In this document: positions 513-57,733 of the stretch, piece after piece | How the letters are laid out: each line of letters opens with the position of its first letter | Position numbering within the stretch: the first letter of the stretch is position 1 | Assembly: GCA_001602455.1 (NCBI GenBank) | Contig: CP012157.1 | Location: 2,909,733-2,973,732 of the forward strand | Reading direction: 5' to 3' | Source of the DNA: Betaproteobacteria bacterium UKL13-2 | Lineage (GTDB): Bacteria > Pseudomonadota > Gammaproteobacteria > Burkholderiales > Usitatibacteraceae | Length of the DNA stretch: 64,000 nt | Program-made: the position numbers and the translations under genes | Notes under the pieces: model-generated | Databases searched by the model: none | The model's input: only the letters and a program-made list of their open reading frames with translations | What the model was told of the DNA's origin: nothing

Positions 513-2048
513 CTAACCAACTTGGGGATTCAGTCGCGCAAACGTTGCCGTCATCTTGTTTAGCGCGTTTAGATATGCCTTCGCTGAGGCGATCACAATA
601 TCTGTGTCGGCGCCAATACCGTTGACAACACGCCCGCCTTTACTGAGCCGTACCGTGACTTCGCCCTGACTGTCAGTGCCCTCAGTCACGTTGTTCACCG
701 AGTACAGTAGCAACTCAGAGTCGCTCTTGACGACGGTCTCGATCGCCTTGAACGTCGCATCAACCGGGCCGGCGCCGTATGCTTCACACTTCACCTCTCG
801 ATCTTGATCGGTGATGATGAGCGTTGCATACGGCGGTTCGCCAGTTTCGACGTGCGCGGTCAGTGACACCAAATGATATTGTTCGACCGTCGGCGTCACC
901 GCGTCATCTGACACGATGGCGTGCAGGTCTTCATCGAAGATTTCTGACTTTTTATCGGCGAGCTCTTTGAATTTCTTAAATGCCGAGTTCAACGCCACCT
1001 CCGATTCAAGCTCGATACCCAACTCTTTCAAGCGCTCGCGAAATGCGGAGCGCCCCGACAGTTTGCCGAGTGTAAGACGGTTGTTGTGCCAACCGACGTC
1101 TTGGGCACGCATAATTTCGTAAGTTTCACGATGTTTCAAAACGCCGTCTTGATGGATACCCGATTCATGGGCGAAGGCATTTGCGCCAACCACTGCTTTA
1201 TTCGGCTGCACTGGGTAGCCGGTGATGGTTGAAACCAGGCGCGAGGCAGGCACGATTTGAGTCGCGTCGATACGGGTTTCCACACCAAAATAATCTTTTC
1301 GGGTCTGGATGGCCATGACGACTTCTTCGAGCGCTGCGTTTCCAGCGCGCTCACCTAAACCGTTGATGGTGCATTCCACCTGACGGGCACCAGCCTTGAC
1401 CGCTGCGAGCGAATTCGCCACCGCCATGCCGAGGTCGTTGTGGCAGTGTGTGGACCACACCACTTGGTCGGCGTTTGGCACACGCTCCAATAATGTTTTG
1501 AAACGGTCGGCCCACAATTCTGGAATGCTGTAGCCCACTGTGTCAGGCACGTTGATGGTTTTTGCACCGGCCTTGATAACTGCCTCAAACACACGACAGA
1601 GAAAATCCATTTCACTACGAACCGCATCTTCTGCCGAGAACTCGACATCGTCGGTAAAGGTGCGTGCAAATTTCACCGCGTCAATGGCCCCCTGCAGTAC
1701 TTGGTCCGGTGTCATACGGAGTTTGTGCTGCATATGAATCGGCGAGGTCGCGATAAAGGTGTGAATACGCCCTCGCGTAGCGGGTTTGATCGCCTCACCC
1801 GCCTTCTGAATATCGCCAACTTGTGCTCGTGCGAGTGAGCATATGGTCGAATCCTTCACCGCCGTGGCGACAGCGTGAATCGCCTCAAAGTCGCCCTGAC
1901 TCGCGGCCGCAAATCCTGCCTCAATCACATCAACACGCATCTTCTCAAGTTGTTTGCCGATGCGTACCTTTTCTTCCTTCGTCATCGATGCGCCCGGGCT
2001 CTGCTCACCATCTCGCATGGTGGTATCAAAAATAATCAAGTGTTCCAT
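513..2048 (-). CDS. leuA: 2-isopropylmalate synthase
   Basis: 511 codons, the usual length for the long form. LeuA condenses 2-oxoisovalerate with acetyl-CoA, the first committed step of leucine synthesis. The N-terminal TIM-barrel carries [15 protein letters not shown] (about residues 8-22), which supplies metal- and substrate-binding residues. [15 protein letters not shown] (about 199-213) holds the metal-binding His pair, and [12 protein letters not shown] follows. The C-terminal 110 residues are the leucine-responsive regulatory domain. The ATG start matches the family N-terminus [14 protein letters not shown]. In related bacteria leuA follows ilvIHC-psd-pssA; here a 2.1 kb mobile segment separates it from pssA, so it probably relies on a promoter within about 300 bp upstream. 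Its TAG stop lies in TAGCCTGAATATT, matching the end of the dispersed repeat described at 6436. Confidence 0.96.
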
Positions 2049-2342
2049 GGTTTTGCTCCGCGCCGCACAGGCGCTAAATTGACGTCAATAGACAAACATG
2101 TTCTCGCTCGCCAGATTGTGGCGAACGGGAATCTACTTAGCAGGAGGGAGTTGGGTTATTTTTGCGCGGGAAGCGCAAGCAGCAGACCGAGCGGCAACAG
2201 CGATGGGCACAACAACGGCAATACACGCAACGGCAATACACGCAACGGTTCCCACCCTGAAGATGCAGCGGCAAGTTGCGGAGTCGTTGGAGAAAACTTC
2301 ATTCCACCAATATAACGCGTTGCAAGAAGGCGTGCAACCGGC
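2049..2342. other. Region upstream of leuA, no gene supported
   Basis: About 290 bases between the leuA start and the mobile segment. It contains two tandem copies of a 15-bp unit (CAATACACGCAACGG) near 2219-2250. I see no convincing leader peptide rich in leucine codons and no terminator. The leuA promoter should be here, but I cannot place it by eye. Frames through this stretch run into the iterons on the right and look like chance. Confidence 0.5.
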
Positions 2343-2555
2343 AGCCTCTTCCAACGGCATCTGCGTCTGAGAGGGGCACTGCGTTTCCAACGGCATCTGC
2401 GTCTGAGAGGGGCACTGCGTTTCCAACGGCATATGCGTCTGAAATGAGGATTTTGGGTCGATTATCCAGAAATGGTCATCGACATGAACGACGCACGGCT
2501 CGACACAATTGAGCAAATCCGAGAATTTCTGGCTGGTACCGCAGATGTAGGCTTC
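2343..2555. repeat. Left arm of long inverted repeat with 36-bp iterons
   Basis: This 213-bp stretch is repeated inverted at 4306-4482. It contains three copies of a motif (CCAACGGCATCTGCGTCTGA or close variant), two of them in full 36-bp units that include GAGAGGGGCACTGCG. It then reads into the first 28 codons of the integrase-type gene (at about 2471-2555). The right arm has one 36-bp unit fewer, which accounts exactly for the 36-bp length difference. Multiple short repeats at an element end are typical of transposase-binding sites, so this is read as an element terminus duplicated in inverse orientation. Confidence 0.85.
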
Positions 2556-2880
2556 ATCCGACGCCGGTAAAGATGCCCGGTAAGTGCTTAAAAAAGTCTG
2601 TTCGGAGAGGTGTATCGACAATAATCTCTGAGCGAAAATACATTTCGGCTGGTACTTTCGAGCGTAGTCGGACAACTCGCTGCTGGCCGGTTCGTGGGTC
2701 AGGCTCAATTTGCTTGTGCAAGGTATCCGAATACTCGCGCCAAAGATGTTCAAGGGCGCCCGTTTGATGGAACAGCTCTTCCAGATTGCCATTCGGCTTT
2801 CCATTCAGAGCCTCGATTTTCTTGATGACCTTTGACAACCTAGCGGATACAAAAAACGAAGGGAAGAAAAAGAAAGCCAA
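2556..2880 (-). pseudogene. Fragment of a ZorA-like (Zorya anti-phage, MotA/ExbB-type) protein
   Basis: The frame encodes about 108 residues, including LWREYSDTLHKQ, RSKVPAEMYFRSE and LRTDFFKHLPGIFTGVG. From memory, the last stretch matches the region just before the conserved membrane segment of ZorA-type MotA/TolQ/ExbB-like proteins of Zorya defence systems; no search was run. The frame is cut exactly where the left inverted-repeat arm begins, with a TGA at 2554-2556. It has no ATG start: the best is a TTG preceded by an in-frame stop. Both ends are therefore lost and the piece cannot be functional. No ZorB or helicase partner is in the window. Confidence 0.5.
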
Positions 2881-2956
2881 GCGTGCTTATCTATCCTTTA
2901 TCACGCCGGGCTCACCAGCTGCGCCTGTATTTTTCATAACCAATGATAAACACAGA

Positions 2957-3421
2957 CTACATGCGTGCACTTTCTGCGAGCAAAGAGTCAATCGACGACG
3001 GCACTTCCCCTCGTGCCAGCATTCGTTTGAACGCTTCATACACATCCGTTTTGGCTCCCGCCTTGCGTAGCGTATCCTCATCGTTAAACCATACGTAAAC
3101 GATCACCCTGAGCGGGCTGGAAGCGAACCGAAAAAATAGTCTGTAGCGATCCGGCATGCCCTTTTTCACTCGTCGCCAGTTGGTATATTCCGCGCCAAGT
3201 GTCTTACCCAATCGAAAATCAGAGTGGTCAGGGTCGTCTGGCACAAGTTGTGTGATGGCCTTGTACACAGAGGCCAATAATCGCGTTTTAGGATGCGCCT
3301 TGTATCCCGCCGGGTCTTGCTGAGCAAGCTTGGTGACGGTCTGCTCAAGGTCATCCAAGGCAGCCTTGAAGAGTCTGAAATAGAACAGTTGCCAACTGCC
3401 CGGGTTCGTTATTTTCGCCAT
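2957..3421 (-). CDS. yhaV: YhaV-family toxin of a type II toxin-antitoxin pair
   Basis: 154 codons from the ATG at 3421 (MAKITNPGSWQLFYFRLFK). A start further upstream would overlap the antitoxin gene. YhaV toxins are ribosome-associated RNases. Conserved pieces here are FRLFKAALDDLEQTV, YKAHPKTRLLASVYKAI, DFRLGKTLGAEYTNWRRVKKGMPDRYRLFFRF and VYVWFNDEDTLRKAG, which match the family layout over its whole length. The antitoxin gene ends 10 bp upstream, so the two are one operon. The pair lies inside the inverted-repeat segment between pssA and leuA and is clearly an acquisition. It looks intact. Confidence 0.85.
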   Translation of the reverse strand: MAKITNPGSWQLFYFRLFKAALDDLEQTVTKLAQQDPAGYKAHPKTRLLASVYKAITQLVPDDPDHSDFRLGKTLGAEYTNWRRVKKGMPDRYRLFFRFASSPLRVIVYVWFNDEDTLRKAGAKTDVYEAFKRMLARGEVPSSIDSLLAESARM

Positions 3422-3431
3422 GGCGTGAGAT

Positions 3432-3782
3432 TCAATGTGTTGCGTCGTCAGATTCAACACCCTCGACCAGTTTGCTGATGCGAGCCAGTTGCTCTTGATC
3501 GACAGGAGTAATCATCTCGGGGTGTTCGCTCACCTGTTGTTGCAAGAAGCTCAAAAATCCAAGCATGACCGGATCGCTATCGTCTTCTGTTGCCCGGCGT
3601 CGAGTTGCTCCTTTTGCGGAGAGCAAGACCTGACCGTCGGCTAGAACGGTCGCTTTCACATCACCGCTGAATTCAGGATGAGCCTTGAAAAAAGCGGCAT
3701 CTATTCGGATACCCTTCGAATTTCCTACAGGAGTAACTTTTCCACTGTACTGCTCCGACCGGGAGCGACCTGCGTTTGCCAT
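3432..3782 (-). CDS. prlF: PrlF-type antitoxin (AbrB/SpoVT-like)
   Basis: 116 codons. The N-terminus (SGKVTPVGNSKGIRIDAAFFKAHPEF) is a swapped-hairpin AbrB-like DNA-binding fold. The C-terminal half should bind the YhaV toxin encoded directly downstream. Antitoxins of this family repress their own operon, and the region just upstream contains a repeated GTTAC(G)ATTGTA motif that could be the operator. The gene order antitoxin-toxin and the short spacing match known prlF-yhaV pairs. Confidence 0.82.
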   Translation of the reverse strand: MANAGRSRSEQYSGKVTPVGNSKGIRIDAAFFKAHPEFSGDVKATVLADGQVLLSAKGATRRRATEDDSDPVMLGFLSFLQQQVSEHPEMITPVDQEQLARISKLVEGVESDDATH

Positions 3783-3799
3783 GACGGCTCCATGATGTG

Positions 3800-3822
3800 G
3801 TTACGATTGTAGTTACATTGTA
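3800..3822. promoter_or_regulatory. Candidate operator of the prlF-yhaV operon
   Basis: Two direct copies of GTTAC(G)ATTGTA at 3800-3811 and 3812-3822 lie 18 bp upstream of the prlF start. On the coding strand they read TACAATGTAAC and TACAATCGTAAC. The position suits autorepression. The assignment is by position and repetition only. Confidence 0.5.
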
Positions 3823-3899
3823 CACGGGGCGTGAGTCACCGTCCTGTATTAGCCGACCGGTGATGGACGCGTCTTGCTCCAGGATATGCGTTGCTTCTA

Positions 3900-4389
3900 C
3901 GCAGCCATCACTCGCACGCAAGTTGTACAGGTGCGACACGGAGATACCGGACAAGTTGATGAACCGATCGTCGCCAAAGACTTGCCAAGCGCGCATCAGA
4001 ATAACCTTGGTTGCCGGACCGGATAAGGTATCGTGCAGTCTATCAACCTCGGCTAACAGCATCACGTCGTCTGCCCCATAGCGATAGCCAAAGTTGGTGC
4101 GGCTAGCGCGGCTTCGCGGCGCAAGTGAACGTTCTTGCCGGAAGCGGGCAATGAGTTTGGTCAGATGCTGGCGGGTATAACTGCTAAGACGTAGCAGGTA
4201 GGCGAATAGCACACCGCGCTGTCCCTTCGTCCTTTCAAAATACCGGTGGCGCTTGAGTACGGTCGAGACGAACCCATAACGGACTGTTTTATCGGTGGAG
4301 AGGGAGAAGCCTACATCTGCGGTACCAGCCAGAAATTCTCGGATTTGCTCAATTGTGTCGAGCCGTGCGTCGTTCATGTCGATGACCAT
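3900..4389 (-). pseudogene. Integrase-type transposase, N-terminal fragment
   Basis: About 163 residues are recognisable: MNDARLDTIEQIREFLAGT, YLLRLSSYTRQHLTKLIARFRQ (a helix-turn-helix-like stretch) and SGISVSHLYNLRAS. These are N-terminal parts of a widespread DDE (rve) transposase/integrase family. After about 3910 the homology stops and the frame runs into the toxin-antitoxin promoter, so the catalytic domain is missing and the protein is inactive. The first 28 codons are repeated, inverted, in the left arm at 2471-2555. The family start may be the second ATG (4377). Confidence 0.7.
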
Positions 4390-4482
4390 TTCTGGATAAT
4401 CGACCCAAAATCCTCATTTCAGACGCAGATGCCGTTGGAAACGCAATGCCCCTCTCAGACGCATATGCCGTTGGAAGAGGCT
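4306..4482. repeat. Right arm of long inverted repeat with iterons
   Basis: 177 bp, the inverse of 2343-2555 less one 36-bp unit. It contains the 5' end of the integrase-type gene and two CAGACGCAKATGCCGTTGG motifs. A weaker relative (TTCAGACGCATCTTACGATTGG) lies outside the arm at about 4604-4627, close to the pssA stop. The two arms bracket 1.75 kb holding the ZorA fragment and the toxin-antitoxin pair. Confidence 0.85.
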
Positions 4483-4644
4483 CCTCTCACAGCTCGCGAT
4501 AGCACTGAGCGATAATGACGCAGCAAAACAAGTCCAAGAGGCAAAGAAACGTCTCTTCCATTCCTTCAACCGTAGATCCAAAGTCGCCGCTTAAAAAGAA
4601 ACGGCTTCAGACGCATCTTACGATTGGAAAATACGCCGGCCCCA

Positions 4645-5439
4645 CTACTCAGACGGCACTTTGGACCTACCGGGATTCGCCGGATTTCGGGCGGAACGAA
4701 TCGCCCGCATTGCCCAGATGAGATAGCCAGACAATGCATAACAAAGAAATAGTCCAAACAAAACATGCGAAGGCTGAATCGATATCAACAAATATCCCAC
4801 CACAATCGCTGGAATCACCCAAAAGGGCACGCTGCGCCGAAGGTTGAAATCCTTCCCGCTGTAGTAAGGAACGGTAGAAATCATGGTGACCCCTGCGAAC
4901 ACCGCCATCCCCCAAGCCACCCAACGAACATCGCCGCCGCTGACCTGCCACTCATTAAGCACCCAAATCAACCCCGCCATTAAACACGCTGCCGCCGGAC
5001 TTGGAAGCCCTTGGAAAAAGCGTTTGTCAACGACCCCGATATTGGTGTTGAAACGTGCAAGCCGGAGCGCTGCACAAACACAGTAGATGAAGGCACCGAT
5101 CCAGCCCCATTTTCCTAGGGGTTGCAGTGCCCACGCATACATCACGAGTGCCGGAGCAGCACCGAAGGAGACCATGTCAGATAGCGAATCAAGTTGCGCG
5201 CCAAACTCGCTGGTGGTGCGCGTCATACGCGCAACGCGACCATCGAGCCCGTCGAGCACCATCGCGACAAAAATAGCAATACATGCCACCTCGAACTTGC
5301 CGTCCATGCCTTGCACGATGGCATAGAAGCCCGCGAACAAGGATGCCGAGGTAAACAAGTTAGGCAGGATATAGATGCCCTTGCGGCGGCGCTCAGGATC
5401 GAGCAGCCCTTTCTTAAGGCGGGGGATGGGTGAATTCAT
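4645..5439 (-). CDS. pssA: CDP-diacylglycerol-serine O-phosphatidyltransferase
   Basis: 264 codons. An integral membrane enzyme that makes phosphatidylserine from CDP-diacylglycerol and serine. The CDP-alcohol phosphotransferase signature is present as DGLDGRVARMTRTTSEFGAQLDSLSD (about residues 63-88), with all conserved Gly, Arg and Asp positions. About seven hydrophobic segments follow the basic N-terminus. The ATG gives MNSPIPRLKKGLL, normal for the family. It lies 35 bp downstream of psd in the same direction, so phosphatidylserine synthesis and decarboxylation are probably co-transcribed. Confidence 0.93.
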   Translation of the reverse strand: MNSPIPRLKKGLLDPERRRKGIYILPNLFTSASLFAGFYAIVQGMDGKFEVACIAIFVAMVLDGLDGRVARMTRTTSEFGAQLDSLSDMVSFGAAPALVMYAWALQPLGKWGWIGAFIYCVCAALRLARFNTNIGVVDKRFFQGLPSPAAACLMAGLIWVLNEWQVSGGDVRWVAWGMAVFAGVTMISTVPYYSGKDFNLRRSVPFWVIPAIVVGYLLISIQPSHVLFGLFLCYALSGYLIWAMRAIRSARNPANPGRSKVPSE

Positions 5440-9994: not shown

Positions 9995-10371
9995 ATGGTT
10001 CACCGCAGAAAAGTCGATGTCAGACGACAATGCGCGCGGAGCCTAGCCCGCGTTCACATGGGTCGCAATGGGTGACTCAAGGGTGACGTCGGAGGGGTAG
10101 GCAGGGCGCGTGACGTCGCCAGAATTGAGCATTACCGCAATATTGTCGCGCCGCAGACAGGGATCGCCCGTTGGATGCTGCGCTGCAAAACGATACCTTA
10201 CCATAACTGTATCGCGACTGGCACTATACGTCCCACAAAGCGCCAGTTGCGGGCCGAATCTTGTTAGACTCGCAGACTTGGCAAAGTCAGCCGTTGGCTG
10301 GTGCATTGTGATCGTCCACCCCGAATTTCACCCGAATTTCAAGATTTCCGTCCGTCGTTACGAGGTAAACC
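9995..10371. promoter_or_regulatory. Divergent promoter region between ilvI and the sigma-factor gene
   Basis: About 375 bases without a supported gene, flanked by genes transcribed away from each other, so both promoters must lie here. A short minus-strand frame starting at 10132 is not rich in Ile, Leu or Val codons, and I see no attenuator hairpin followed by a T-run. No operator stands out. Confidence 0.55.
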
Positions 10372-10956
10372 CTGGCTTCCCGGCAAGAACTTTCTGATTT
10401 TTTGGCCTCTGTTGAGCGGCGGGCGTTCAAACAAGCGGTTTTCGCCGTCAAGGACGACGAGGCGGCGCTGGACATCGTGCAAGACTCGATGCTTCGGCTG
10501 GCCGAAAAGTATGGCGATCGGCCAATTGACGAGTTACCGATGCTATTCCAGCGCATTCTTCAGAATGCCATCCGCGACTGGTTTCGCCGCACCAAGGTAC
10601 GTTCGACCTGGACGACGCTGTTCTCATCATTCAGCAACAAGGATGAAGATGACGAGTTTGATATTTTGGAGTCACTCGCCATTGAACAATCATCCAATAT
10701 TCCGGTCTCACCCCACGGGCAGCTAGAGCAAGCGCAGGTATTAACCGCAATTGAACAGGCGGTTGAAAAGCTGCCCGGGCGTCAACGCCAAGCCTTTATG
10801 CTGCGTTATTGGGAAGAATTTGATGTTGCGGAAACAGCAAAAGTGATGGGTTGCTCTGAGGGAAGTGTTAAGACACACTGTTCGCGGGCAGTCAACGCTC
10901 TGTCCATCATGCTCCGCGCGAAAGGTATTTCACTCGATTCAATTGTTACAAAATAG
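10372..10956 (+). CDS. RNA polymerase sigma factor, sigma-70/ECF type
   Basis: 194 codons if it starts at the CTG at 10372. GAGG lies about 8 bp upstream and the peptide LASRQELSDFLASVERRAFKQA continues family homology. A TTG at 10402 gives a shorter 184-codon form. Region 2 covers ERRAFKQAVFAVKDDEAALDIVQDSMLRLAEKY and ILQNAIRDWFRR. Region 4 covers LEQAQVLTAIEQAVEKLPGRQRQAFMLRYWEEFDVAETAKVMGCSEGSVKTHCSRA. It probably directs a small regulon. The next three genes (DUF3619, DUF3106, RDD) are its usual companions in Burkholderiales, and the DUF3619 protein may be its membrane anti-sigma partner (inference). Confidence 0.85.
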   Translation: MASRQELSDFLASVERRAFKQAVFAVKDDEAALDIVQDSMLRLAEKYGDRPIDELPMLFQRILQNAIRDWFRRTKVRSTWTTLFSSFSNKDEDDEFDILESLAIEQSSNIPVSPHGQLEQAQVLTAIEQAVEKLPGRQRQAFMLRYWEEFDVAETAKVMGCSEGSVKTHCSRAVNALSIMLRAKGISLDSIVTK

Positions 10957-11003
10957 CCACTATTGTTTTGGTGATTCGCCTCTAAGGCGCACCCTTTAAG
11001 CTC

Positions 11004-11393
11004 ATGAACGAAAACGACTTTTCCAAAAAATTTGCGTCCTACCTTGATGTCAGCGCGGCGAATGTCAGCGCCGATACAGCGAGCCGTCTGGCCAAGGTAC
11101 GTCAGCAAGCGCTCGCCGCATACCAGCCGCCAGTTCGCATTTTGGGGCTCATCACCGTATCTGGGCAGATGACAGATCCGTCTTATGTGGCTCGGAAGCC
11201 GGTTTTCTGGCTGGGTGTTTTGGGTCTGGCCACTGCCGTCTGGGCGCTTCAGCCTCCAGCAGCAACCGACGATCTCTACGACGAAGCAGGTGTAGTTGAC
11301 GCCAAACTGCTAACCGGCGAATTGCCAATTGATGCATTCTTAGACAAAGATTTCGCCACATGGGTGCAAGAGCAAGAGGCGGCTCCACAGTAG
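11004..11393 (+). CDS. DUF3619-family membrane protein, possible anti-sigma factor
   Basis: 129 codons. The N-terminus (MNENDFSKKFASYLDVSAANVSADTASRLAKVRQQAL) is a cytoplasmic helical region like those of DUF3619 proteins. One hydrophobic segment (PVFWLGVLGLATAVWAL, about residues 65-82) follows, and the C-terminus is acidic. Placement directly after a sigma gene and the single-membrane-span plan fit an anti-sigma role, which is inference. The end overlaps the next gene by 34 bp. Confidence 0.75.
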   Translation: MNENDFSKKFASYLDVSAANVSADTASRLAKVRQQALAAYQPPVRILGLITVSGQMTDPSYVARKPVFWLGVLGLATAVWALQPPAATDDLYDEAGVVDAKLLTGELPIDAFLDKDFATWVQEQEAAPQ

Positions 11394-11917
11394 TTTCGGT
11401 GCAGCGCCGTCGCATCGTCAGGCTCGCGCTGGTAGCGAGCCTCTTTGCGTTTTCTGCCGCCATTCTGACGTTCCATAGCCCATCGGCGCTGAGTCAGGCG
11501 AGCGCGACGCCGAGCGCACCGGCTAACGTACAACCGGCACCCTCTGCGGCTAAGTCGAAGTCGACCGCGACCATTCCTTGGAAGCGCGTCCCGGACGCTG
11601 ATAAAAAAATTCTAGCGCCGCTTGAAAGCCATTGGGCTACGCTCCCCGGCCCCCAGCAACGTAAGCTCTTGGGCGCATCAAAGCATTACCCAACGCTAAC
11701 CCCAGTTGAGCAAGAGCGATTCCAAGAGCGCCTGCGTAGTTGGTCGACTCTGACCCCAGAACAGCGTAGCACTGCGCGCAACAAGTATGAGTCTTTGAAC
11801 AAGCTTTCGCCTGCTAAACAGGATGAACTAAAGGAACGCTGGCAGCACGAAAAACAGGCTGACAAGCAGCCCAAGGACGCACTACCGGCCAATTCATCCG
11901 GCCCGACGAGCAAGTAG
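11360..11917 (+). CDS. DUF3106-family secreted protein
   Basis: Up to 185 codons. The ATG at 11360 overlaps the previous gene; a GTG at 11399 would remove 13 residues and still leave a signal peptide (RRRIVRLALVASLFAFSAAI). The mature part repeats a helical pattern: WKRVPDADKKILAPLESHWATLPGPQQRKLLGASKHYPTLTPVEQERFQERLRSWSTLTPEQRSTARNKY. This is a run of W-x-x-L-x-P-x-Q/E-R units typical of DUF3106. The C-terminus is Lys/Pro rich. Probably periplasmic, function unknown. It belongs to the sigma-factor operon. Confidence 0.75.
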   Translation: MGARARGGSTVVSVQRRRIVRLALVASLFAFSAAILTFHSPSALSQASATPSAPANVQPAPSAAKSKSTATIPWKRVPDADKKILAPLESHWATLPGPQQRKLLGASKHYPTLTPVEQERFQERLRSWSTLTPEQRSTARNKYESLNKLSPAKQDELKERWQHEKQADKQPKDALPANSSGPTSK

Positions 11918-45352: not shown

Positions 45353-45401
45353 ACTAGGATTTCATAAATGGTGTCTGACCCCAATTTACTCATTGTAAAA
45401 A

Positions 45402-46573: not shown

Positions 46574-48417
46574 GCGGATAGGAAATCCAACCACATGAGG
46601 GCGATTATGACCCATGTTTTGGGCATCACAGGCCTTCAGCCTGGGTCTGCCTGAGCGCTTGTTCAAGGCCAGTCGCCCGAGATTTTTCGGTTTGCGCATT
46701 TTTGGGCAGCACCAGGCGCAGCCCTACCCCGCAGCGTTGGCCAAACCGCTGTTGCCTTCCCTCACCAACTGATGCGCTGATCGACCTCAAAGTCCGGCGC
46801 AGGTTGGGCCGCTTCGTCCCAATCTGGCTCAACCTCGACACCCTCGCCCATGGGCGCGTCGCACCCGTCCCACAGCGGTGGCCCGCGTGCTGGTGTGATG
46901 CGCGGTGGCTCTGTCTCCACCCCGATGTGATCCAGTATTTGGCGAATGTCAGCGCTGTAGGTGATGAAGGCGATGATGCGCATTTGCCCGCCACAGATGG
47001 GGCACAGCAGCGGGAACACCTCGTAGATGCGGGCAATCAGCACCGCCCACAGGTAGTGCGCTGGGCGCTTAGGCTGCACCGGCTGGGTCGGCTCGGCCTG
47101 GGTTAGGAGTGGGTTGCCTGCCTCAGGTGCCGCTGCGCCCGCGACCGCCCCTGTGCTGGCTGGCTCAGCTTGCACCTGCGCCGGTGGCGGTGGTTTCGCC
47201 GGTTGCGCCGGTTGCACCACTGCATCTTGTGCCAGCGCCGTGACAGCAGGCCTCAAAGGTGAGTTCGGTGCCAGAACGCCGAAATACCGGTGGCGATGCG
47301 TTCGCGGTGGTGGCACCAGTGCGGCAATGCGGGCTATGAGTTCGAGCGGCGTGAGGTGCAGCTCATCTGCCTGTGCCCCGTGCTTTGCACCTCGGTTTGC
47401 GTTGCGTTGGTCGCGCCGGTCACTGCCTGGCTCGCTGCGCTGCTTGGCGCAGCGGTAGACCAACTCGCTGCCCGCTTTGTGCAGCCGTTCCATTGCAAAC
47501 GGGGGCCGTGCGCAGTACCGCAGCAAGCGCTCCAACCCCGCTCGGTCTTGTGCTGCTATGCACACGCTGGTGTCCACCGAAAACCCACTGTGTTTGTACC
47601 CCAGCATCTCCTGGGCCTCGAAGCCTTCGAGCAGGCCCCGGCCCACAAAGGCGCGCAGGATGCGTCGGCGCAAACTGGCCTGGGCTTTGGCCACCGCTTC
47701 GGTGTCGATGCCGGTGGCCGGGTGGAAGATGACACCCGGCGCACAGGCTTGCGCACAGGCTTGGGCACGGGCTTGAGCTTGAGCGGCAGCACCGCCCTCG
47801 CCCGCCACTTCCTCAAACACGCCATCGACTGCGCAGACGTGGAAGTGCACATGCTCATTGAGGCTGGAGCCAAAGCGGTGGATGAAGGCGACTGCGCCGA
47901 TGTGCAGTGCTGCGTTGTCTGCATTGGCCGCACCCGGGCTGTTGACTTGCAGCGTTTGTGCAATGACCCGCAGAAAGATGCGCAGCACCATGCCCAGCAC
48001 CGCGCCATCTCGCTGCATGAAGTAACGCAGTCGCTTGGGCACTGACAACACCCACTGGCGCACCGGCAGGCGAGGGAAGACGTGGTCGGTGAGGTGTGCC
48101 GCCGTCTCGGACATGCGCCGCGCGTTGCAGGATGGGCACACGCCCCGGCCCTTGCAGGAGAAGGCGACAAGAAAGTCGTGCCCGCAGTCACCGCAGCGGG
48201 CGCGGGCAAAGCCGTGCGCAAAGATGCCGCACTCCAGATATTTCTCGAAGGCTTTGCGCACATAGGATTTGGGGCTGTGGTGGTCGCCCTGCCCGTCGAA
48301 CTGGCCCGCGCTGGCCAGCTCAAGCCAGCTCTCGTAGTGCTCGGCCACCGTTTGGTAGAGCAGCGTGCGTTCGGGGTGGCGCCGGTTGTAGAGCTTGGGT
48401 TTGGAGTTGGTTGGCAT
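46574..48417 (-). mobile_element. IS91-type element, copy d (full transposase)
   Basis: The common end GCGGATAGGAAATCCAACC starts at 46574, preceded by CAAG, a tetranucleotide known as an IS91 target. The upstream side diverges from copies b and e right at the transposase start. It is followed by a small GC hairpin and T-run (about 48420-48440), then AT-rich DNA. Confidence 0.82.
46762..48417 (-). CDS. IS91-type HUH transposase (copy d)
   Basis: 551 codons, intact. Same domains as copy b: N-terminal CGDCGHDF and CPSCNARRM zinc motifs, EHVHFHVC nuclease motif, catalytic-type tyrosine in LERLLRYCARPPFAMERL, and C-terminal CPICGGQ. It differs at the N-terminus (MPTNSKPKLYNRR) and around residues 280-330, and has the longer linker QPAQPAKPPPPAQVQ. 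With copy b it is one of two complete transposases that could drive the others in trans. Confidence 0.87.
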   Translation of the reverse strand: MPTNSKPKLYNRRHPERTLLYQTVAEHYESWLELASAGQFDGQGDHHSPKSYVRKAFEKYLECGIFAHGFARARCGDCGHDFLVAFSCKGRGVCPSCNARRMSETAAHLTDHVFPRLPVRQWVLSVPKRLRYFMQRDGAVLGMVLRIFLRVIAQTLQVNSPGAANADNAALHIGAVAFIHRFGSSLNEHVHFHVCAVDGVFEEVAGEGGAAAQAQARAQACAQACAPGVIFHPATGIDTEAVAKAQASLRRRILRAFVGRGLLEGFEAQEMLGYKHSGFSVDTSVCIAAQDRAGLERLLRYCARPPFAMERLHKAGSELVYRCAKQRSEPGSDRRDQRNANRGAKHGAQADELHLTPLELIARIAALVPPPRTHRHRYFGVLAPNSPLRPAVTALAQDAVVQPAQPAKPPPPAQVQAEPASTGAVAGAAAPEAGNPLLTQAEPTQPVQPKRPAHYLWAVLIARIYEVFPLLCPICGGQMRIIAFITYSADIRQILDHIGVETEPPRITPARGPPLWDGCDAPMGEGVEVEPDWDEAAQPAPDFEVDQRISW

Positions 48418-51602: not shown

Positions 51603-51818
51603 GCTCATTCCTCCTTGAAAAACGCTGCCCGCGGATAGGAAATCCAACCGCATGAGGGCGATTATGACCCATGTTTTGGGCATCACAGGCCTTCAGCCTG
51701 GGTCTGCCTGAGCGCTTGTTCAAGGCCAGTCGCCCGAGATTTTTCGGTTTGCGCATTTTTGGGCAGCACCAGGCGCAGCCCTGCCCCGCAGCGTTGGCCA
51801 AACCGCTGTTGCCTTCCC

Positions 51819-53474
51819 TCACCAACTGATGCGCTGATCGACCTCAAAGTCCGGCGCAGGTTGGGCCGCTTCGTCCCAATCTGGCTCAACCTCGACACCC
51901 TCGCCCATGGGCGCATCGCACCCGTCCCACAGCGGTGGCCCGCGTGCTGGTGTGATGCGCGGTGGCTCTGTCTCCACCCCGATGTGATCCAGTATTTGGC
52001 GAATGTCGGCGCTGTAGGTGACGAAGGCGATGATGCGCATTTGCCCGCCACAGATGGGGCATACCAGCGGGAACACCTCGTAGATGCGGGCAATCAGCAC
52101 CGCCCACAGGTAGTGCGCTGGGCGCTTAGGCTGCACCGGCTGGGTCGGCTCGGCCTAGGTTAGGAGTGGGTTGCCTGCCTCAGGTGCCGCTGCGCCCGCG
52201 ACCGCCCCTGTGCTGGCTGGCTCAGCTTGCACCTGCGCCGGTGGCGGTGGTTTCGCCGGTTGCGCCGGTTGCACCACTGCATCTTGTGCCAGCGCCGTGA
52301 CAGCAGGCCTCAAGGGTGAGTTCGGTGCCAGAACGCCGAAATACCGATGGCGATGCGTTCGCGGTGGTGGCACCAGTGCGGCAATGCGGGCTATGAGTTC
52401 GAGCGGCGTGAGGTGCAGCTCATCTGCCTGTGCCCCGTGCTTTGCACCTCGGTTTGCGTTGCGTTGGTCGCGCCGGTCACTGCCTGGCTCGCTGCGCTGC
52501 TTGGCGCAGCGGTAGACCAACTCGCTGCCCGCTTTGTGCAGCCGTTCCATTGCAAACGGGGGCCGTGCGCAGTACCGCAGCAAGCGCTCCAACCCCGCTC
52601 GGTCTTGTGCTGCTATGCACACGCTGGTGTCTACCGAAAACCCACTGTGTTTGTACCCCAGCATCTCCTGGGCCTCGAAGCCTTCGAGCAGGCCCCGGCC
52701 CACAAAGGCGCGCAGGATGCGTCGGCGCAAGTTGGCTTGGGCTTTGGCCACCGCTTCGGTGTCGATGCCGGTGGCCGGGTGGAAGATGACACCCGGCGCA
52801 CAGGCTTGCGCACAGGCTTGGGCACGGGCTTGAGCTTGAGCGGCAGCACCGCCCTCGCCCGCCACTTCCTCAAACACGCCATCGACTGCGCAGACGTGGA
52901 AGTGCACATGCTCATTGAGGCTGGAGCCAAAGCGGTGGATGAAGGCGACTGCGCCGATGTGCAGTGCTGCGTTGTCTGCATTGGCCGCACCCGGGCTGTT
53001 GACTTGCAGCGTTTGTGCAATGACCCGCAGAAAGATGCGCAGCACCATGCCCAGCACCGCGCCATCTCGCTGCATGAAGTAACGCAGTCGCTTGGGCACT
53101 GACAACACCCACTGGCGCACCGGCAGGCGAGGGAAGACGTGGTCGGTGAGGTGTGCCGCCGTCTCGGACATGCGCCGCGCGTTGCAGGATGGGCACACGC
53201 CCCGGCCCTTGCAGGAGAAGGCGACAAGAAAGTCGTGCCCGCAGTCACCGCAGCGGGCGCGGGCAAAGCCGTGCGCAAAGATGCCGCACTCCAGATATTT
53301 CTCGAAGGCTTTGCGCACATAGGATTTGGGGCTGTGGTGGTCGCCCTGCCCGTCGAACTGGCCCGCGCTGGCCAGCTCAAGCCAGCTCTCGTAGTGCTCG
53401 GCCACCGTTTGGTAGAGCAGCGTGCGCTCGGGGTGGCGCGGGTTGTAGAGCTTGGGCTTGGATGTAGTCGGCAT
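51819..53474 (-). pseudogene. IS91-type transposase with amber stop (copy e)
   Basis: The frame is the same as copy d, but a CAG (Gln in NPLLTQAEP) has become TAG at 52155-52157. This splits the gene into a 439-codon N-terminal part, which keeps the zinc-binding, HUH and tyrosine motifs, and a C-terminal remnant. The truncated protein would lack the C-terminal cysteine domain. Whether it retains activity is unknown. Confidence 0.85.
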
Positions 53475-54460: not shown

Positions 54461-55333
54461 CGGATAGGAAATCCAACCGCATGAGGGCGATTATGACCCA
54501 TGTTTTGGGCATCACAGGCCTTCAGCCTGGGTCTGCCTGAGCGCTTGTTCAAGGCCTGTCGCCCGAGATTTTTCGGTTTGCGCATTTTTGGGCAGCACCA
54601 GGCGCAGCCCTGCCCCGCAGCGTTGGCCAAACCGCTGTTGCCTTCCCTCACCAACTGATGCGCTGATCGACCTCAAAGTCCGGCGCAGGTTGGGCCGCTT
54701 CGTCCCAATCTGGCTCAACCTCGACACCCTCGCCCATGGGCGCATCGCACCCGTCCCACAGCGGTGGCCCGCGTGCTGGTGTGATGCGCGGTGGCTCTGT
54801 CTCCACCCCGATGTGATCCAGTATTTGGCGAATGTCAGCGCTGTAGGTGATGAAGGCGATGATGCGCATTTGCCCGCCACAGATCGGGCACAGCAGCGGG
54901 AACACCTCGTAGATGCGGGCAATCAGCACCGCCCACAGGTAGTGCGCTGGGCGCTTAGGCTGCACCGGCTGGGTCGGCTCGGCCTGGGTTAGGAGTGGGT
55001 TGCCTGCCTCAGGTGCCGCTGCGCCCGCGACCGCCCCTGTGCTGGCTGGCTCAGCTTGCACCTGCGCCGGTGGCGGTGGTTTCGCCGGTTGCGCCGGTTG
55101 CACCACTGCATCTTGTGCCAGCGCCGTGACAGCAGGCCTCAAAGGTGAGTTCGGTGCCAGAACGCCGAAATACCGGTGGCGATGCGTTCGCGGTGGTGGC
55201 ACCAGTGCGGCAATGCGGGCTATGAGTTCGAGCGGCGTGAGGTGCAGCTCATCTGCCTGTGCCCCGTGCTTTGCACCTCGGTTTGCGTTGCGTTGGTCGC
55301 GCCGGTCACTGCCTGGCTCGCTGCGCTGCTTGG
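54461..55333 (-). mobile_element. IS91-type element, copy f (truncated)
   Basis: Same extent and breakpoint as copy c (after GCGCTGCTTGG), as part of unit 2. Confidence 0.83.
54648..55333 (-). pseudogene. IS91-type transposase, C-terminal fragment (copy f)
   Basis: Duplicate of the copy c fragment, with the AKPPPPAQ-containing linker and C-terminal cysteine motif only. Confidence 0.83.
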
Positions 55334-55672
55334 ACTAGGATTTCATAAATGGTGTCTGACCCCAATTTACTTGGGTGGGAGCAGCAACAATGACACACCG
55401 TTGGGTAGCGACGAAAGAGCAGGGGCTGTTACGAGTTGAGCGCGCCTTAAGGCACGGGCATGCGCAGTATTTTGTTCAGCGCGCCTTCGCGCAAGCTGTT
55501 TCTATATGCGGGATCACAACCCGCGAAAAGTGCTGGCGCGTTCAAGAGTCAGATTGGGGTTGCTCACGCGTCGTGGTTCCGATGCCATGAGCCATGCGAA
55601 TGGCTTGTTCTGATAACAGCAAATGCGATGGGCCCCGCAGATTCATATGCATTTCGACTCATTATGGTGCGA
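55334..55672. other. Gene-free stretch with a GTCTGACCCC repeat motif
   Basis: The first 38 bp (TTTCATAAATGGTGTCTGAC and CCCAATTTAC) are shared with 45353-45390. The motif AATTGGGGTCAGACACC is common near REP-associated transposase genes, from memory. The rest contains a hairpin (GTTCAGCGCGCCTTCGCGC, about 55475-55493) and no supportable gene. Confidence 0.45.
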
Positions 55673-56548
55673 CTATCTACGATCAGTTCGAACGACAGCG
55701 TCCCGCTCATCAACGTCAAACGTCATACACTTACCTTTGCAGTTAAAGACCTGCGTTTTTAGAGGTTCCATGTACTTGGCTGTACCGTAACCCTCAGGTG
55801 CTTCGACGTTGTTGATACCAAACTTTTGCATCGCGCGGACGGTTGCAACCCAAGCGTCCGAAGCATTCGCTGTTTTTGGCTCTTGTCCAAGCCGCGTAAT
55901 GTACTCATTGATTTGAAGCTCATCGTAGAATTGGCGCTCCATCTCACGGAATTTGATTAGGGTCGCGATCGAAGATTTTTTTTCGTCAAGGAAAGCTTGA
56001 TCGTCCTTAGTCAATTGTTCCTTCGAAAAATAACTCTTTTCAAGGGTTTCGACATACTTGACCAATAATTCACGCAAATCCTTTTGATGTGAACTTCCGT
56101 GCCACGTAACGAGACTACCTGCACCGATGATCTTCTTATTGCCGGCAAGGAATACCAAATTCGCACACGCCGAATGACAGTAAAGATATGCTTCCACATC
56201 TAAATTATTGTCTTTGACCCAGCGAGCAAGCTTCATTCCCGCAATAGCACTCCCACCATCGGAGCCAATAATCAATTTTTTTATTGTCCCTGACGGACGC
56301 TCAGCAATGAATTTGTCCACTTTTTCAATTGTTATCGGGCCATTGAAAAAATGCTTAAACTCAGCGACGCGGGCAGCGGACATATTGTTGCCGGGCTGCT
56401 GCTTCGGTTCGGCGGCAGCGTGAGGACAAGCAAGTACAAAGCAGGCGCAGAACAATAGGGACTTACGAAAAAAATCTCCACCGATTTTCAATGAGACCGT
56501 CCAAATGAAGAAAGTATTGAAAGCGTCTTCATGGCAAAAGTTTGCCAT
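55673..56548 (-). CDS. Periplasmic ClpP/crotonase-fold protein (COG3904-like)
   Basis: 291 codons; a later start within the first 25 codons is possible. A signal peptide (KSLLFCACFVLACPHAAAEP) ends near residue 47. The ClpP-like core is KKLIIGSDGGSAIAGMKLARWVKDNNLDVEAYLYCHSACANLVFLAGNKKIIGAGSLVTWHGS, where Ser in CHSACAN occupies the nucleophile position and a His follows in TWHGS. This is the pattern of COG3904 periplasmic proteins. It lies 21 bp downstream of a double-glycine-leader peptide gene, so the two are probably co-transcribed; a processing role is inference. Confidence 0.7.
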   Translation of the reverse strand: MANFCHEDAFNTFFIWTVSLKIGGDFFRKSLLFCACFVLACPHAAAEPKQQPGNNMSAARVAEFKHFFNGPITIEKVDKFIAERPSGTIKKLIIGSDGGSAIAGMKLARWVKDNNLDVEAYLYCHSACANLVFLAGNKKIIGAGSLVTWHGSSHQKDLRELLVKYVETLEKSYFSKEQLTKDDQAFLDEKKSSIATLIKFREMERQFYDELQINEYITRLGQEPKTANASDAWVATVRAMQKFGINNVEAPEGYGTAKYMEPLKTQVFNCKGKCMTFDVDERDAVVRTDRR

Positions 56549-56569
56549 GAAGACTTCGCTTAATGTGCC

Positions 56570-56830
56570 TCAGGGGTTCCCGGCCTCTGGGTTGTAAGTG
56601 TGCACAGTGCCGTCAGCATCTCTAACCTCGATACCCCCGTCTGTATACCTAGTAAAAGAATAGCCATCATCCGTAAATCCAGTTTCAGCCACACCGCCAA
56701 GGTACTCGGGTGTTCCAGGGCCATATACATGCCTCGTAATAGACGACGAACCAAAATTAAGGTCGTTTCCTGTAAGTGTAATCGGCCCCCCTGCGACTTG
56801 CTTGGCTTCAATTTTGCTCAATACACGCAT
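56570..56830 (-). CDS. Small peptide precursor with double-glycine leader
   Basis: 86 codons from the ATG at 56830, with GGAG 8 bp upstream. The leader MRVLSKIEAKQVAGG has the spacing and residues of bacteriocin/microcin double-glycine leaders (M-R-x-L-S-x-x-E-x-x-x-V-x-GG). Cleavage after GG would release a 71-residue acidic, Gly/Thr-rich product (PITLTGNDLNFGSSSITRHV...). No peptidase-containing ABC transporter is in the window. The function as bacteriocin is not established; the leader is the evidence. Confidence 0.62.
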   Translation of the reverse strand: MRVLSKIEAKQVAGGPITLTGNDLNFGSSSITRHVYGPGTPEYLGGVAETGFTDDGYSFTRYTDGGIEVRDADGTVHTYNPEAGNP

Positions 56831-56919
56831 TGTAAGAACTCCTATGAAATTTGATGGAAGTCTGTTCCATTTATCCAGTCCGGGAATGAGAACAGCGTGA
56901 TGCACTGCGTCATTTCTGA

Positions 56920-57733
56920 GCGGATAGGAAATCCAACCGCATGAGGGCGATTATGACCCATGTTTTGGGCATCACAGGCCTTCAGCCTGGGTCTGCCTGA
57001 GCGCTTGTTCAAGGCCAGTCGCCCGAGATTTTTCGGTTTGCGCATTTTTGGGCAGCACCAGGCGCAGCCCTACCCCGCAGCGTTGGCAAAACCGCTGTTG
57101 CCTTCCCTCACCAACTGATGCGCTGATCGACCTCAAAGTCCGGCGCAGGTTGGGCCGCTTCGTCCCAATCTGGCTCAACCTCGACCCCCTCGCCCATGGG
57201 CGCATCGCACCCGTCCCACAGCGGTGGCCCGCGTGCTGGTGTGATGCGCGGTGGCTCTGTCTCCACCCCGATGTGATCCAGTATTTGGCGAATGTCAGCG
57301 CTGTAGGTGATGAAGGCGATGATGCGCATTTGCCCGCCACAGATCGGGCACAGCAGCGGGAACACCTCGTAGATGCGGGCAATCAGCACCGCCCACAGGT
57401 AGTGCGCTGGGCGCTTAGGCTGCACCGGCTGGGTCGGCTCGGCCTGGGTTAGGAGTGGGTTGCCTGCCTCAGGTGCCGCTGCGCCCGCGACCGCCCCTGT
57501 GCTGGCTGGCTCAGCTTGCACCTGCGCCGGTGGCGGTGGTTTCGCCGGTTGCGCCGGTTGCACCACTGCATCTTGTGCCAGCGCCGTGACAGCAGGCCTC
57601 AAAGGTGAGTTCGGTGCCAGAACGCCGAAATACCGGTGGCGATGCGTTCGCGGTGGTGGCACCAGTGCGGCAATGCGGGCTATGAGTTCGAGCGGCGTGA
57701 GGTGCAGCTCATCTGCCTGTGCCCCGTGCTTTG
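56920..57733 (-). mobile_element. IS91-type element, copy g (truncated)
   Basis: Common end GCGGATAGGAAATCCAACC at 56920. It breaks at 57733 after GCCCCGTGCTTTG, inside the transposase gene, where it joins the 3' flank of the DNA methyltransferase gene. It retains the longer linker. Confidence 0.83.
57108..57733 (-). pseudogene. IS91-type transposase, C-terminal fragment (copy g)
   Basis: Homology covers about 208 C-terminal residues from KHGAQADELHLTPLELIARI onward. The frame continues 27 codons into non-IS sequence upstream, which is not part of the protein family. Confidence 0.82.

Follow-up and report, generated by a model that had tools for sequence, protein, structure and literature searches.

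The window, that is, the whole stretch of DNA analysed (64 kb), carries on its minus strand a small peptide gene followed by a gene for a secreted ClpP/crotonase-fold protein; a hairpin lies between the two genes and truncated IS91-family elements border them (Table 1). A preliminary description had assigned the first gene to peptides with a double-glycine (GG) leader, and this assignment holds, as the open reading frame, the leader and a Shine-Dalgarno sequence were all found. The precursor reads MRVLSKIEAKQVAGG/PITLTGND...NPEAGNP, where the slash marks the predicted cleavage point.

The window was scanned with a strict leader pattern (M, 1-4 residues, hydrophobic, x, xx, acidic/amide, xxx, hydrophobic, small, GG), which retrieved this open reading frame and no other. 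A single match was also retrieved from 1,245,350 bases of control flanks (79 loci; 1,323 ORFs of at least 200 aa), and it sits directly upstream of a ClpP-like gene (locus L038). Since the pattern is rare in control DNA and its sole control match also precedes a ClpP-like gene, the leader is unlikely to be due to chance. The precursor has no match in Pfam or NCBIfam or among plasmids, and a peptide profile searched against 399 genomes drawn from the order matched the host only. A structure model of the peptide, based on an alignment of three sequences, is beta-rich with a pLDDT of 65, and its best PDB match (E 0.28) is not significant, so no fold was assigned. A promoter scan of the pair yielded nothing above chance and no recognisable sigma-70 promoter.

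Table 1. Features of the window, of the homologous G010 contig and of the peptide array of the host genome
Feature	Position	Strand	Remarks
GG-leader precursor gene	56570..56830	-	86 aa; leader MRVLSKIEAKQVAGG; predicted mature part 71 aa
Shine-Dalgarno AGGAG of peptide gene	56839..56843	-	8 bases upstream; rated good; read from sequence
Perfect 13-bp hairpin	56525..56554	-	between peptide stop and partner start; z = -4.1; no U-tract
Secreted ClpP/crotonase-fold partner	55673..56491	-	probable start TTG 56491; longest ORF to 56548
Repeat GGTGTCTGACCCCAATTT	55351..55368	+	downstream of partner, ~300 nt
IS91-family copy 1, with transposase (Y2_Tnp + Zn_Tnp_IS91)	51631..53474	-	
IS91-family copy 2, truncated	54461..55333	-	borders pair on partner side
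IS91-family copy 3, truncated	56921..57733	-	borders pair on peptide side
G010 contig, MFP	519-1820		
G010 contig, C39 ABC	1808-3952		
G010 contig, peptide	4142-4408		
G010 contig, ClpP-like	4474-5250		
Array GG peptides (nine)	L023:8847, 10834, 11482, 15266, 17010; L184:1837, 3671, 5552, 9144		
Array TraB/PrgY/GumN partners	L023:9344; L023:11939; L184:6009		PF01963
Array CPBP/Rce1-like partners	L023:15580; L184:1994; L184:9398		PF02517
Array HExxH/NEGxA partner	L184:4048		Peptidase_MA_2 match below threshold
Array ClpP-like partner	L023:17237		lipobox-bearing paralogue of window protein, 35% identity

The partner gene is the next one after the peptide gene on the same strand. Its annotated ATG is buried in the hairpin, so that translation probably starts at the TTG, which has GGACGG ahead and yields MKIGGDFFRKSLLFCACFVLACPHAAA-EP, a signal peptide by inspection. 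The protein is then ~272 aa long; residues are given here in the 291-aa numbering of the longest ORF. Its AlphaFold model, obtained with 40 homologues, has a pLDDT of 83.9, and all 50 PDB matches listed are ClpP (E ~1e-6, TM by target up to ~0.6). All 40 homologues retain without variation the equivalents of the ClpP oxyanion GG (G98-G99) and of the ClpP nucleophile (Ser126, which opens helix 127-135), as well as His150. The secreted neighbour is predicted to have a ClpP/crotonase fold with Ser and His at active-site positions, in agreement with the preliminary description. It resembles ClpP (S14) in fold and in Ser-His spacing, which is 24 here (S126-H150) and 25 in ClpP (S98-H123); unlike ClpP, it has a signal peptide and a CxS[SA]CAN motif, no Pfam S14 match and no sign of an ATPase partner. 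It belongs to no Pfam family, with no Pfam ClpP match at E<=1, and an NCBIfam ClpP-related model matches it weakly (E 0.13). Neither Pfam nor NCBIfam gave an S41 (NSR) or S49 (SppA) profile match, the Pfam search gave no PF02517 (Abi/CPBP) domain with EExxxR and FxxxH, and a PDB sequence search with the ClpP-like profile gave no match. Class- and order-wide genome searches added few members, the family being scattered (8/369 genomes); plasmids hold distant matches only (<30% identity), and five distant matches were found on viral contigs. Other ClpP-like partners also bear a signal peptide or lipobox (by inspection).

Given that the region is rich in insertion sequences, a generic periplasmic ClpP-like gene may have come to lie beside a GG-peptide gene incidentally, and the peptide is indeed absent beside most ClpP-like relatives: a GG peptide adjoins the ClpP-like gene in 2 of the 80 public loci of these relatives (L034 and L038). 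We strongly disfavour this account and consider it very improbable, since five adjacencies of a peptide and a ClpP-like gene were found in three genomes, always with the peptide first and both genes on the same strand; since such a pair accounts for the sole strict match in the 1.25 Mb of control sequence; and since the peptides beside close ClpP-like homologues are homologous to each other. The leader is conserved in the homologues, and the two families adjoin each other in G010 (L034), at two Rhodoferax loci (L038 and L187) and at a second host locus, so neither of the findings that would speak against the pair, leaders without conservation and genes never adjacent elsewhere, applies. As 78 of the 80 loci have no adjacent GG peptide, the peptide association concerns a subset of the ClpP-like family, and the general role of the family is a different one, which counts against the interpretation proposed below. 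The closest unpaired ClpP-like homologue (G015, L026:9904-10704; 46% identity) has as its neighbours a gene for a macroglobulin-like protein of 1909 aa and one that is penicillin-binding-protein-like (names by inspection), and no peptide link was found in this neighbourhood.

Genome G010 belongs to the same genus as the host, and its contig is identical to the public MAG contig JAJAYN010000382.1. Its peptide and ClpP-like protein are, respectively, 41% (E 2.4e-14) and 52% identical to those of the window. The start position of its peptide ORF (L034:4142) reads ATA, with a correctly spaced Shine-Dalgarno sequence; the explanation is a rare start codon, an error in sequencing or damage to the gene. 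Both further pairs are in Rhodoferax STA_46. The L038 peptide (MRELNTSEVAEVAGG...) overlaps the start of the ClpP-like gene by 10 nt. At L187, a gene for a membrane fusion protein (MFP) is followed by the peptide (MKVLCKRELAYISGG...), a Y1 transposase-like ORF of ~143 aa, the ClpP-like gene, an unknown 543-aa ORF (10261-11892), an HlyC-like acyltransferase and a C39 ABC transporter. The acyltransferase, an HlyC-type RTX enzyme (PF02794; L187:11877-12410), adjoins the 543-aa ORF, and the locus may possibly make an acylated microcin. A core of the type GGV..(T)..(D)G[YW]...Y..G is common to the peptides of the window, G010 and L038.

The peptidase-containing ABC transporter that the preliminary description had suggested looking for is present, the host genome (3.39 Mb, one contig) encoding three of the C39 type. 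One of them (G000:C1 858148-860292), together with an HlyD-type MFP, heads an array that reaches ~880 kb (L023, L184) and contains nine GG peptides, the majority of whose leaders read MRELSVNEVGFVSGG. Array peptides are preceded by copies of a ~300-nt unit, in which the start of the MFP gene (its 5' end) is joined to the divergent leader region, and these promoter units are 72-98% identical in the part tested (L023). A protease-superfamily gene comes next after eight of the nine peptides (TraB/GumN three times, CPBP three times, HExxH and ClpP-like once each), while peptide L023:10834, a near-duplicate of the peptide that follows it, is without a partner of its own. Nine genomes from the same family have a GG peptide followed by a CPBP gene and then by MFP and ABC genes; taken together with the array partners, these loci make protease-superfamily partners the rule in this lineage. 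The preliminary description had suggested that the pair may be a new peptide-producing or peptide-processing unit: the pair does recur, but since four protease superfamilies fill the partner slot, its ClpP-like member is only one variant of a general scheme. Two CPBP partners (L184:9398, in host cassette 9, and L153:7294, in G007) have lost the EExxxR motif; catalysis is thus not always kept, and partner function may not need it. The array is broken twice by a 464-aa transposase-like ORF (L023:13247-14641 and L184:7317-8711).

A stem of at least 9 bp between peptide and partner is present in the window and in 8/8 peptide-partner cassettes of the array (z -1.3 to -4.1); no significant hairpin was found in the G010 and L038 pairs. 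The window hairpin has no U-tract, and it is therefore probably an attenuator or an mRNA-processing element. Genome-wide, the repeat that follows the partner occurs 28 times. The ~16-kb array, in which it is strongly enriched, contains seven of these copies, oriented relative to the genes as the window copy is; the repeat recurs in the window at position 45370, and some copies adjoin Y1 transposase genes. As judged from these shared sequence signatures, the hairpin and the repeat, the window pair appears to be of one type with the array cassettes.

We propose, with slightly more confidence than doubt, that the pair consists of a class II microcin-like precursor, whose export takes place in trans, and its cognate immunity protein. 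A C39-peptidase ABC exporter with an HlyD-type fusion protein, encoded elsewhere in the genome and presumably the one that heads the array, would cut the precursor after GG and export the peptide, and we infer that such an exporter recognises the window precursor. In the producer's periplasm, the ClpP-fold serine-hydrolase-like partner would remove or at least bind the mature peptide, and the hairpin would probably make peptide mRNA more abundant than partner mRNA. The partner is most likely the cognate immunity factor, which in turn is probably a protease; the peptide would be toxic and the partner would cleave it. The leader, the adjacency of the genes, its recurrence, the exporter context, the conserved Ser/His, the predicted fold and the signal peptide (by inspection) are established at the level of sequence, and immunity is deduced from gene position and from precedents (Abi/CPBP, NSR and SppA).

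Known class II microcin loci comprise a precursor, an adjacent immunity gene, a C39 ABC transporter and an MFP, and the immunity genes, which have no conserved sequence feature to recognise them by, directly adjoin the precursor and often overlap it (PMC10233263). The window pair resembles class II microcins (MccV/CvaC type) in its N-terminal double-glycine leader, which is kept in homologues, in its small, unmodified-looking peptide and in the adjoining partner gene; the C39 ABC transporter and the HlyD-type MFP are present genome-wide and, in G010, in cis with the homologous pair. The preliminary description had contrasted the partner with an expected transporter; the next gene is indeed ClpP-like, but it replaces no transporter and sits in the position of class II microcin immunity genes. 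That position fits, whereas size and topology do not and count against immunity: the partner is a periplasmic ClpP-fold protein of ~272 aa, and known class II microcin immunity proteins have 51-216 aa and are mostly located in the inner membrane. The window pair further differs from class II microcins in its Burkholderiales host, in a peptide that is a candidate antibacterial and in having no exporter of its own adjacent, and as an orphan cassette it would rely on one in trans. The missing exporter and sigma-70 promoter also count against the proposal, as do the CPBP partners without EExxxR, the ATA in the G010 peptide and the precedent of SilX, a CAAX protease of a streptococcal bacteriocin locus with a role in processing, not immunity (PMC9298176).

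The SilX precedent, the conserved catalytic Ser/His and the place of the partner after the peptide in the same operon are what one would also expect of a maturation protease that trims the exported peptide to its active form after C39 has removed the leader. We regard this reading as unlikely, since cleavage is already supplied by C39, since the TraB, CPBP, HExxH and ClpP folds of one array would all have to be dedicated trimmers, and since two CPBP partners are without the catalytic motif. Still less probable, in our estimation, is that the peptide is a secreted signal whose level the protease-like partner sets by periplasmic turnover. GG-leader peptides can serve as signals in Gram-negatives, the name of the TraB/PrgY family refers to pheromone shutdown, and both the L038 peptide and the L187 MFP have a LuxR-type HTH ORF (by inspection) upstream; on the other hand, nine diversified cores with one leader in one genome are arsenal-like, and no receptor gene was seen near the window pair. 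Cognate immunity is favoured over maturation, signal turnover and coincidence.

Protease-superfamily proteins beside bacteriocin genes have precedents in the Abi/CPBP proteins (SkkI, PlnI, PlnL), known bacteriocin self-immunity proteins (PMC8538875), whose family occupies the partner slot in the host array and in the nine related genomes. Abi/CPBP proteins are intramembrane proteases, whereas the window partner has a ClpP/crotonase fold and is serine-type and periplasmic. It can also be likened to two extracytoplasmic serine proteases with shown protection from antimicrobial peptides, NSR (S41), which cuts nisin with a Ser-His dyad and protects cells (PMC4698656), and B. subtilis SppA, whose protease activity guards against lantibiotics (PMC7568657). 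These belong to other peptidase families and serve in resistance or stress responses to peptides of foreign origin, while the window gene is paired with a peptide gene. No ClpP-like or TraB/GumN partner of a microcin is described in the open-access literature searched; if our proposal is true, a periplasmic ClpP-fold protease as a dedicated microcin immunity protein is a new type of immunity.

More tentatively, and with more doubt than confidence, we suggest that microcin self-protection in this lineage relies as a rule on extracytoplasmic proteases: the array would duplicate one promoter-leader unit and join it to varied cores, every core having its own cognate protease, drawn from one or another of four or more unrelated superfamilies (CPBP, TraB/GumN, HExxH and ClpP-like), and single cassettes such as the window pair would move off and use an exporter in trans. 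Nine to ten peptide-partner pairs are available in a single host, their partners drawn from four protease superfamilies, and since the catalytic motifs are intact in some partners and degenerate in others, immunity by proteolysis and immunity by binding can be directly tested against each other. All described microcins come from Enterobacteriaceae (PMC10233263), and a GG peptide with an extracytoplasmic protease-like gene is a search rule for microcins beyond that family.

The IS91 copies between which the preliminary description had placed the pair are real, but only copy 1 has a transposase ORF, copies 2 and 3 being truncated. Delivery of the pair by IS91 is plausible; no second copy of the 1.57-kb cargo was found in the host or in 60 relatives. 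A gene for a D12-class adenine DNA methyltransferase (PF02086; 57769-58683) adjoins copy 3 as the pair adjoins copy 2, and a further IS91 fragment (48001-48417) shares 98% identity with the 5' portion (53058-53474) of the IS91 transposase gene.
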